From Candidatus Uhrbacteria bacterium GW2011_GWE2_46_68 (GTDB lineage: Bacteria; Patescibacteriota; Patescibacteriia; UBA9934; GWF2-40-263): a DNA stretch of 58,028 nucleotides. The notes beneath the pieces are model-generated. The model saw only the letters and a program-made list of their open reading frames with translations. It was not told where the DNA came from and ran no database searches. Below, in pieces: positions 51,272-58,028 of this stretch (position 1 is its first letter; each line of letters begins with the position of its first letter). The DNA lies in the NCBI GenBank assembly GCA_001002765.1, contig LCMS01000008.1:1-58028 (forward strand), given 5' to 3'. The translations under genes were made by a program, and so were the position numbers.

Positions 51272-51348
51272 GGACGCATGGCTCAGTTGGTTAGAGCGCT
51301 ACCTTCACACGGTAGAGGTCCGTGGTTCGAGTCCACGTGCGTCCACCA
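51272..51348 (+). tRNA. tRNA-Val(CAC)
   Basis: GGACGCA...CTACC-TTCACAC-GGTAG...GGTTCGAGTCC...TGCGTCCACCA. Confidence 0.95.
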
Positions 51349-51554: not shown

Positions 51555-52814
51555 ATGTTTCCTTTTTCTCGACCAACTTTTGAATCTTCTCCGTCTGCCG
51601 CCTCTGTGGAGGCAGGGTTCCAACGCACTTCGGAAGTCCTTGGTAAAGCCATCATGGATTCGGTTTCAAGTGTCCGTGATTCTTTGCCCGAACAATACCG
51701 CGCGCATTTTGAAACTTTGCGACAAGAGATCATTGATTTTACAAAAGCTCATGGGATTCCCAGAGAATCTCTTGGCAAGCCTGACCTTCTGCGCGAGTCT
51801 ACCAGAAAACTTTCCATTCCAGATCTTGAACGACTTGCCAATCTTCTTGAACGATTTGAATACCTCATTGTCAAAAAAGAACCTTGGAAGAATACCAAAG
51901 CCATCGAGTATGGAGAGAATTTTTATCACCTCAAAGAGCAATACGATTCCCAGGTCTCCCTTCTTGAACAAATAGGTATTCTCAAAGAAGGAGCCATCAC
52001 TGGTATAGATGGTCATGAATATCCCGTTCCAACTCTCGAACAAATAGCTTCTCGTCTCTTTGAACGCCGTGGCGAACTTTCCACTAAACACGACCAAGGC
52101 TTTGCTAAACTCCTCCTTGTTCCCTTTGGCATGAGCCTTGATGCTCTCCAAGAAACACTCGAACAATTCCTTCTTAAGTACAAGAAGGATCATCCCTCCT
52201 TTGATCTTTATACAGACTCACCTCTTCTGACGTGTAAAGACTATCAAGGAGCAGACATCGGAGATTTTCCTAAGCTTGTTTATTACCTACAGTCTTTTGA
52301 TCCGAAAGATCTTCAAGGAAAGACCAAGATAGAGATACTTAGGGAACAAGAAGACAATCAAGATTCCTTTCCTGGTTGGATTGTTCATCTTCTTCAACCT
52401 TCTAATCCTTCCGATCCACATTCCCCGGGTTTTGCCTCCATTCCCAGAGAAGGACGGGGAACACCCCACGGAGATCTCGTCCCTCGACCTCCTCTTGAAG
52501 CAGGTCAATCTCCCAATGAATATTTTTCTATTCTTCAAAAAGCTCGAGAGTATGAAGACTCTCCCTATCACGGTGAAACAGGTATGACTCCCGAAGATTG
52601 GATCACAGCCTTTATGATCCACCTTTCTGAAACAGGAAAACCTTTGGATGACTGGGAAAACGTCACAGAAAGTGACTCTTACCTTACAGGAGCTTTTTTT
52701 CGGTCCTCCGACCTTGTGCCAAGAGCGCACTGGAGTCGTGACCTTCATCGGGTTTTCCTCGTCCTTAGCGATAACTTTCCTAACATTGGAGTGCGGTCTT
52801 CGGTGATCGTTTAA
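51555..52814 (+). CDS. Paralog family protein, copy B
   Basis: Full-length member of the tandem family. Confidence 0.85.
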   Translation: MFPFSRPTFESSPSAASVEAGFQRTSEVLGKAIMDSVSSVRDSLPEQYRAHFETLRQEIIDFTKAHGIPRESLGKPDLLRESTRKLSIPDLERLANLLERFEYLIVKKEPWKNTKAIEYGENFYHLKEQYDSQVSLLEQIGILKEGAITGIDGHEYPVPTLEQIASRLFERRGELSTKHDQGFAKLLLVPFGMSLDALQETLEQFLLKYKKDHPSFDLYTDSPLLTCKDYQGADIGDFPKLVYYLQSFDPKDLQGKTKIEILREQEDNQDSFPGWIVHLLQPSNPSDPHSPGFASIPREGRGTPHGDLVPRPPLEAGQSPNEYFSILQKAREYEDSPYHGETGMTPEDWITAFMIHLSETGKPLDDWENVTESDSYLTGAFFRSSDLVPRAHWSRDLHRVFLVLSDNFPNIGVRSSVIV

Positions 52815-52826
52815 CCTTTGATATCT

Positions 52827-54137
52827 ATGTCTCTTTCTCGACCAATTTTTGAATCCTCTCCGTCTGCCACCCCTGCAGAAGCAGGGGCCCAGCGCACTTC
52901 AGCAAACCTCCATGAAGCCATGATGGATTCGGTTTCAAGTGTTCGTGATTCTCTTCCCGAACAACACCGCGCACACTTTGAAACTCTGCGACAAGAGATC
53001 ATTGATTTTACAAAAGTTCATGGGATTTCCAGAGAATCTCTTGGTAAGCCCGACCTCCTCCGCGAGGCGACCTGTAAACTCTCCACTCCAGATCTCGAAC
53101 GACTTGCCGATCTTCTCAAACGCTTTGAATATCTACTTAAGAATGGGGAACCGAAAAAAGAAGACTATACCGAAGCCCTTGAGTACGGAGAGAAGTTTTA
53201 TCGCCTCAAAGAGCAATATGATTTCCAGGTCTCTCTTCTTGAACAAGTAGGCATTCTCAAAGAAGGAGCCATCACTGGCATAGATGGTCATGAATATCCC
53301 GTGCCAACTCTCGAACAAATCGCTTCTCGTCTGTTTGAACGCCGTGGTGAACTTTCCACTAAACACGACCAAGGCTTTACCAAACTTCTTCTTGTTCCCT
53401 TTGGCATGAGTCTTGATGCTCTCCAAGAAACCCTCAAACAATTCCTACTCAAGCACAAGAAGAAGAATCTTTCCTTTGATCTTGATACTAATGAACCCAT
53501 TTGGCTGTGTGAAGACTATCAAGGAGCAGACATAGGAGATTCTCCTAATCTTGTCTATGAGCCACAGTCTTTTACAAAAGAAGGTCATGGGAGGAAGACA
53601 AAAGCACAAATACTCGAAAAACAATCCAAAGGACAATGGATCCCTGCCCCTGTAGGAGTGTCAGGAGAGAAGGGATTGGGAACCCCCGGTTGGACGGTTC
53701 ATCTTCTTCAGCCTTCTGATCCTTCCGATCCATATTCCCCGGGCTTTGCTCCCATCCCCAAAGAAGGCCAAAGAACATCCCAAGGTGACCTCGTTCCTCG
53801 ACCTCCTCTTGAAGCAGGCAAAACCCCCAATGAATATCTTTCCATTCTTCAAAATGCTCAAGGTGATAAAGACTCTCCCTACCATGGTGAAACAGGCATG
53901 ACTCCCGAGGATTGGATCATGGCTTTTATGATCCACCTTTCTGAAACAGGAAAACCAATGGATGACTGGGAAAACGGTACAGAAAGCAGATCTTACCTTA
54001 CAGGAGCTTTTTTTCGGTACTCCCTCGGTGTGTCTTTCGCGTATTGGCACCTTGACTCTCGTCAGGCTCGCCTCAGCTGGCACGGTCCTCGTGGTCGGGT
54101 TATGGGCATTGGCTTGCGGTCTTCAGTGATGGTTTAA
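52827..54137 (+). CDS. Paralog family protein, copy C
   Basis: Starts 12 nt after copy B stop (ATGTCTCTTTCTCGACC). Confidence 0.85.
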   Translation: MSLSRPIFESSPSATPAEAGAQRTSANLHEAMMDSVSSVRDSLPEQHRAHFETLRQEIIDFTKVHGISRESLGKPDLLREATCKLSTPDLERLADLLKRFEYLLKNGEPKKEDYTEALEYGEKFYRLKEQYDFQVSLLEQVGILKEGAITGIDGHEYPVPTLEQIASRLFERRGELSTKHDQGFTKLLLVPFGMSLDALQETLKQFLLKHKKKNLSFDLDTNEPIWLCEDYQGADIGDSPNLVYEPQSFTKEGHGRKTKAQILEKQSKGQWIPAPVGVSGEKGLGTPGWTVHLLQPSDPSDPYSPGFAPIPKEGQRTSQGDLVPRPPLEAGKTPNEYLSILQNAQGDKDSPYHGETGMTPEDWIMAFMIHLSETGKPMDDWENGTESRSYLTGAFFRYSLGVSFAYWHLDSRQARLSWHGPRGRVMGIGLRSSVMV

Positions 54138-54149
54138 CCTTTGATTTTT

Positions 54150-55406
54150 ATGTCTCTTTTTCGACCAACTTCAGAATCTTTCCCATCTGCCGCCCCTGCG
54201 GAGGCAGAGGGCCAGCGCACTTCAGCAAATCTCCACGAAGCCGTCATGGATTCGGTTTCAAGCGCCCGCGATTCTTTACCTGAACAATATCGCGCGCATT
54301 TTGAAACTCTACGACAAGAGATTATAAATTTTACCGAGGTTCACGGGATTTCCAGAGAATCTCTTGGCAAGCCTGACCTCCTGCGCGAGGTGACCGGCAA
54401 ACTTTCCATTCCATATCTTGAACGACTCGCTCTCCTTCTCGAACGCTTTGAGTATCTTCTCAAACACAAAGAGCCAAAGGAAATCACAGATCCTTTAGAA
54501 TATGCCGAAGAGTTTTATCATCTTCGCGAGCAATATAATTTTCAAGTAGAACTTCTTGAACAAGTCGGTATTCTCAAAGAAGGATCCATCCTAGGTATAG
54601 ACAGTAACATCTATCCCATCCCCACCTTGGAACAAATCGCCATGCGTCTGTTTGAACACCGCGAAAAACTCTCCATTAAACATGACCAAGGCTTTACTAA
54701 ACTTCTTCTTGTTCCCTTTGGCATGAGCCTTGATTCCCTCCAAGAAACCTTCAAACAATTCCTTTTAGATTATGCAAAAAAACATCCGGATTTTCCTCAA
54801 AATAAAAATTCTTTGCTTGCCGAACATTTTTATGTCGGAGCCGATGCGGGGGGTAACCCGAGACTTGTATATAATCCAGGATCTTTTCCACCAAAGTATC
54901 GTCACTATCAAACAAAAGAGCAGATACTTGACGGCCAATTAGCATTTCTATGTTTTGCTCCTGGTTGGAGAGTACTTCTCCTTCAATCTCCGGCAGATGT
55001 CAAAAAGGATGGTTTTGCTTCTATTCCTTTGGAACATTTGGGAACAACGCGAGGATCGAAAATTTTACGTCCAGATGTTGAGGCCCATAAAACAGCGGAT
55101 GATTATCTTCATCTTCTTTTAAAAAATCAAGATCGTCCCGATTCTCCTTACGAAGGAGAATCAGGTATGACACCGGAAGATTGGATTCTCGCCTATATGA
55201 TTCATCTCAGTGAGACAGGAGAGCCTCTCGACCGTTTTGAAAAAGGTGGAGCCGATAAGTCGATCCTCATAGGGGCGTATTTTTTATTTAAAGATGTTGT
55301 TCCCACTGCTTTTGGAGCAGTATCACCAGAAGTTGCACAATTAGGTTTTCTTGATTACAGATCAAAACACGATTTCACTGGTTCGCGTTTTGTACTTGAG
55401 GTGTAA
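54150..55406 (+). CDS. Paralog family protein, copy D (divergent C-terminal half)
   Basis: N-terminal ~200 aa close to copies B/C; remainder divergent but colinear. Confidence 0.85.
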   Translation: MSLFRPTSESFPSAAPAEAEGQRTSANLHEAVMDSVSSARDSLPEQYRAHFETLRQEIINFTEVHGISRESLGKPDLLREVTGKLSIPYLERLALLLERFEYLLKHKEPKEITDPLEYAEEFYHLREQYNFQVELLEQVGILKEGSILGIDSNIYPIPTLEQIAMRLFEHREKLSIKHDQGFTKLLLVPFGMSLDSLQETFKQFLLDYAKKHPDFPQNKNSLLAEHFYVGADAGGNPRLVYNPGSFPPKYRHYQTKEQILDGQLAFLCFAPGWRVLLLQSPADVKKDGFASIPLEHLGTTRGSKILRPDVEAHKTADDYLHLLLKNQDRPDSPYEGESGMTPEDWILAYMIHLSETGEPLDRFEKGGADKSILIGAYFLFKDVVPTAFGAVSPEVAQLGFLDYRSKHDFTGSRFVLEV

Positions 55407-57603: not shown

Positions 57604-57657
57604 AATAACAGGGTATCCATAAGATAATTTTTGGAGAACGAGAAACGTAATCAGTTA

Positions 57658-58028
57658 ATGATTTTTATGTCTCTTTTTCGACCAAGTTTTGAATCTTCTC
57701 CATCTGCCGCCTCTGCGGAGGCAGAGGTCCAGCGCACTTCGGAAATTTTTGGCGAAGCCATCATGGATTCTGTTTCAAGCGTCCGTGATTCTTTGCCCGA
57801 ACAACACCGCGCACACTTTGAAACTCTACGACAAGAGATTATTGATTTTACAAAAGCTCATGGGATTCCAAAAGAATCCCTTACCAAACCTGCCGCTCTC
57901 CGCGAGGCGACCAGTAAACTCTCCATTCCAGACCTTGAGCGACTCGCTCTCCTTCTCGAACGCTTTGAATATCTGCTTAAGAATGGGGAACCAAAGAAAG
58001 AAGACTATACCGAAGCCCTCGAGTATGC
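57658..58028 (+). CDS. Paralog family protein, copy E (truncated by window end)
   Basis: MSLFRPSFESSPSAASAEAEVQRTSEIFGEAIMDSVSSVRDSLPEQHRAHFETLRQEIIDFTKAHGIPKE...; not in the ORF track because it is unclosed. Confidence 0.85.
   Translation, partial: MIFMSLFRPSFESSPSAASAEAEVQRTSEIFGEAIMDSVSSVRDSLPEQHRAHFETLRQEIIDFTKAHGIPKESLTKPAALREATSKLSIPDLERLALLLERFEYLLKNGEPKKEDYTEALEY

Follow-up and report, generated by a model that had tools for sequence, protein, structure and literature searches.

Target genes and variable tails in the window

We analysed a 58,028-nt stretch of DNA from Candidatus Uhrbacteria bacterium GW2011_GWE2_46_68 (hereafter the window), which is contig C8 of a 1.056-Mb, 99%-complete genome in 30 contigs. 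The window carries members of a protein family whose C-terminal tails are scrambled between copies. The genes and their tails, the latter being variable repeats (VRs) of a diversity-generating retroelement (DGR) as described below, are as follows.

2-1279, + strand: target gene A (5' end off the window), its protein 75% identical to that of copy C
1165-1276, + strand: VR of copy A, old
51555-52814, + strand: target gene B
52709-52811 (about), + strand: VR of copy B, with a 9-nt gap against the template repeat
52818-54137, + strand: target gene C
54023-54134, + strand: VR of copy C
54141-55406, + strand: paralogue D, C-terminal tail not a recognisable VR of this template repeat
57631-58026, + strand: paralogue E, cut by the contig end before its tail

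A tRNA-Val (CAC) gene (51272-51348) lies about 200 nt upstream of the B-C-D array, and is a possible insertion landmark. The coordinates of the three tails in the original prediction, made from the window alone, are right to within about 10-20 nt. Nevertheless, the copies had been described as near-identical outside the tail, which is an overstatement, as the proteins are about 60-75% identical to copy C in that part. Some target copies carry an in-frame insert reading like RWTPAFAGVAG before the GTPGW segment, while others lack it (window 52818-54137 and L003:2980-8161; L numbers are our own locus labels). This insert resembles the translation of a dispersed palindromic repeat. Searches against Pfam, NCBIfam and PHROGs gave no family for the target, and a structural model of low confidence (mean pLDDT 62) yielded no fold or sequence match, so that a C-type-lectin fold is unconfirmed.

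Strong protein matches to the target family cover 71.8 kb of the genome (6.8%), corresponding to about 55 gene equivalents, and 37 of the matches are at least 1.1 kb long. Some of the matches are fragments at contig ends.

A DGR cassette in the same genome

The original prediction held that the tails are targets of a DGR with its template repeat and reverse transcriptase (RT) outside the window, or relics of one. The predicted parts were found on another contig (C5) of the same genome, next to further target genes, in the order below.

C5:66509-66620: template repeat (TR, 112 nt), an A-rich near-copy of the tail
C5:66620-66964, minus strand: Avd gene
C5:66948-67936: DGR-type RT gene, divergent from avd

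The Avd protein matched NF033474 (E 2.7e-12) and PF22296 (E 4.4e-8), both below the curated bit cut-offs, as well as a PHROG Avd family (1.5e-12). The RT matched RVT_1 in both halves, which are joined only across a frame break described below, and bears the DGR motif IGNVTSQ. avd and RT overlap by 17 nt at their annotated starts. A strong GC-rich hairpin (ACGACGACGCAGCGTCGTCGT; L003:8310-8380) lies about 130-190 nt upstream of the TR, and could belong to the TR transcript or its promoter region.

Scanning of the target copies retrieved gave 31 ungapped VRs. A conserved VR 3' end was seen. In the 8 closest VRs, 146/224 TR adenines were changed, in contrast to 28/672 other bases (C 7/184, G 13/264 and T 8/224). 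When pooled over the 31 VRs, template adenines changed far more often than other bases (odds ratio 8.2, p 4e-137). Two VRs differ from the TR only at adenines (15/0 and 18/0 adenine/other changes), and two more nearly so (15/1 and 20/1). The tails in the window appeared to be older: copy A is changed at 23/28 template adenines and 33/84 other bases, copy B at 16/24 and 20/79, and copy C at 20/28 and 11/84, the adenine bias being clearest in C and weaker in A and B. Older VRs, including that of copy C, share non-adenine differences. In the 20 closest VRs, 114 of 162 such differences lie at columns where at least four VRs have the same alternative base, and we infer that these VRs were copied from an earlier version of the TR. 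The tail of paralogue D does not align to the TR as a VR, and D may be a non-diversified member or a target of a lost TR. Altogether, the identification of the tails as DGR targets is virtually certain, and the dispersed, greatly expanded target family is apparently served in trans by the one cassette on C5.

Simple repeats in Patescibacteria DGR loci

Unexpectedly, and invisible from the window, the RT gene is split by an 11-G tract just before the IPIGN motif. The tract is two bases over a multiple of three and needs 9 or 12 G to be in frame, so the assembled genome reads RT out of frame, while the two halves are otherwise open. Of 30 RT loci first examined (this genome plus 29 loci from relatives), most had a G9-G12 tract or a (GA)n repeat tied to RT, although G9+ tracts are rare genome-wide (8 in 1.06 Mb in this genome). 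By a count made by hand, about 24 of about 76 such tracts in 16 genomes lie at a DGR locus, which is about 0.2% of the sequence.

We then extended the survey to a larger set of Patescibacteria loci, sampled by RT similarity. Of 128 loci, 98 have a simple repeat in the interval of the avd start and RT (99 repeats in 158 kb), against 3 trinucleotide runs in 459 kb of flank, about a 96-fold difference in density. As a replicate, 60 further loci were retrieved, of which 57 were new; 41 of these have the repeat, with none in the flanks. In total, 139 of 185 loci (75%) carry an unstable simple repeat (G8-G15, or di-/tetranucleotides), and 46 lack one at our thresholds. In most relatives the repeat lies, read on the avd strand, between an ATG followed by a few codons and the Avd domain, as a C8-C15 or dinucleotide repeat. 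In a second clade, which contains the RT of this genome, it lies inside RT, around +360 or +500 to +613 nt of the RT model. A few loci have it near the RT end, and two Parcubacteria loci (L114 and L111) carry tetranucleotide repeats there (TGGA x8 and GATG x8, about 1014-1020 nt from the RT model start), a third repeat class at DGRs.

Although the avd start codon is inferred, all 120 loci with the avd tract have an open ATG within 60 nt upstream of it, against 44% at random points, and only 6/80 have an in-frame ATG soon after the tract. Frame states counted from a single upstream ATG were 22/19/21 in the first set and 10/12/8 in the replicate, uniform when pooled (32/31/29; p 0.93). In the group with the repeat inside RT, 2 of 14 are in frame, fewer than the third expected, though not significantly. 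Avd is intact in 38/40 out-of-frame loci, the other two being cut by contig ends, so out-of-frame does not mean decayed.

On an RT tree of 128 rows, the RT of this genome falls in a supported clade of 17, with Peregrini-, Peri-, Azam- and Moranibacteria among others. Repeat position changed at least 6 times and repeat unit at least 15 times, albeit this was a quick tree with many weak branches. What is conserved is repetitiveness at a frame-critical place, not a sequence. Near relatives at 76-88% nucleotide identity, albeit not strain-level pairs, differ in tract length: AC13 (L095, open) and AC10 (L117, broken) at 88% nucleotide identity, GA20 (L055) and GA18 (L061), and G8 (L106) and G9 (L125). 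The trait occurs in many named lineages, among them Nomura-, Kaiser-, Levy-, Yanofsky-, Berkel-, Uhr- and Peregrinibacteria. In contrast, twelve DGR-type RT loci from Vibrio, Bordetella and Faecalibacterium phages (BPP-1 included) and from plasmids of cyanobacteria and proteobacteria have no such repeat at avd or RT, only short trinucleotide runs further downstream, and wherever an avd is annotated in them, it runs in the same direction as RT. Of 34 relatives on viral contigs of IMG/VR, only about 4 carry a tract near RT, so the repeat is mainly a cellular Patescibacteria trait.

Probable phase variation of a mutator

From this anatomy, without read-level length variation or expression data, we infer that most Patescibacteria DGRs are phase-variable (probability about 0.85). 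RT and Avd are both needed for retrohoming in BPP-1 (PMC12875486). Replication slippage at the tract should restore or break the frame often and reversibly, so that a share of cells runs the mutator while the rest keep their current tails, and diversification comes in bursts in part of the population. The genome studied here is assembled in the OFF state, but its freshest VRs show activity recent enough that no other change has accumulated. If this is the case, targeted hypermutation across Patescibacteria is itself under stochastic, heritable on/off control by hypermutable repeats in avd or RT, with a minority of cells exploring new tails, and one such switch would govern roughly 55 target-gene equivalents in this genome. 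We consider this likely. How DGR activity is regulated in nature was called an open frontier in a 2026 study of BPP-1 (PMC12875486). Tract length can be read from existing metagenome reads, so the on/off state of many uncultured DGRs, and its link to VR diversity, becomes directly measurable. It would also mean that RT or avd genes that look like pseudogenes in Patescibacteria are often switched off instead of dead, so annotation pipelines may undercount working DGRs.

The cassette shares with DGRs of the BPP-1 type, and with the CPR DGRs surveyed by Roux et al. 2021 (PMC8144416), an RT with the SQ motif, Avd, a TR, C-terminal VRs and adenine-specific change. It differs in that avd is divergent from RT, an unstable simple repeat sits in avd or RT, and one cassette faces about 55 target-gene equivalents. 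Terms for homopolymer and frameshift do not occur in the main text of that survey, and we found no paper joining DGRs with phase variation in this sense, though only open-access papers were searched and absence of prior reports is not proof. Simple-sequence-repeat contingency loci (PMC11868660) likewise have a tract within the coding region near the start, G/C homopolymers of 8 or more or short-unit repeats, and out-of-frame states with otherwise intact genes. The switched gene here is, however, a mutator (Avd or RT) instead of a surface structure or modifying enzyme, and the switching itself is inferred. The multi-target DGRs of Thiohalocapsa PB-PSB1 (PMC10907252) also have several targets, some proposed to be served in trans, but comprise nine DGR loci with 15 targets, whereas here one cassette has a far larger target family.

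Alternatively, the repeats may act on transcription, by spacing in the divergent avd/RT promoter region, or through programmed slippage by polymerase or ribosome. The avd tract lies 28-76 nt upstream of the RT model start in the divergent region, and uniform frames would also be expected for a non-coding tract. Nevertheless, we regard this as unlikely, as in other lineages the repeat is deep inside RT, dinucleotide and tetranucleotide units do not suit programmed slippage, and the Avd domain follows the tract almost at once with no start codon in between in most loci. A promoter-spacing switch would still be phase variation. It is less likely still that the DGR is a dead relic with a permanent frameshift in RT and fossil tails. 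RT is out of frame in the assembly and most VRs carry old non-adenine changes, but two VRs differ from the TR at adenines only, the break sits exactly in the 11-G tract between otherwise open halves, and the same kind of break recurs in related DGRs with intact genes. A sequencing or assembly error in the tract length of an intact RT is also improbable. Homopolymers are error-prone, and one related locus (L134) has an assembly gap at the tract position, but an error could explain one length, not the recurrent placement of repeats, including di- and tetranucleotides, at avd or RT and nowhere else in the flanks, and frame states are spread evenly. Divergence of the tails without a DGR, by ordinary mutation, positive selection or recombination between paralogues of this large and partly tandem family, is contradicted by the TR, RT and Avd and by the concentration of changes at TR adenines.

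Interestingly, a G10 tract (L233:1452; C10:16951) sits at the frame break inside a divergent target-family gene, so some targets may be phase-variable too. Three further poly-G tracts of this genome (L228:2744, L230:1577 and L232:1649; C1:58243, C11:14576 and C20:5148, respectively) lie tens of nt upstream of ATGs of proteins with an N-terminus like G-[YM]-[VI]-PP-[ED]-A, one of which (C20) is a member of the target family. These tracts may be phase-variable promoters of related proteins.
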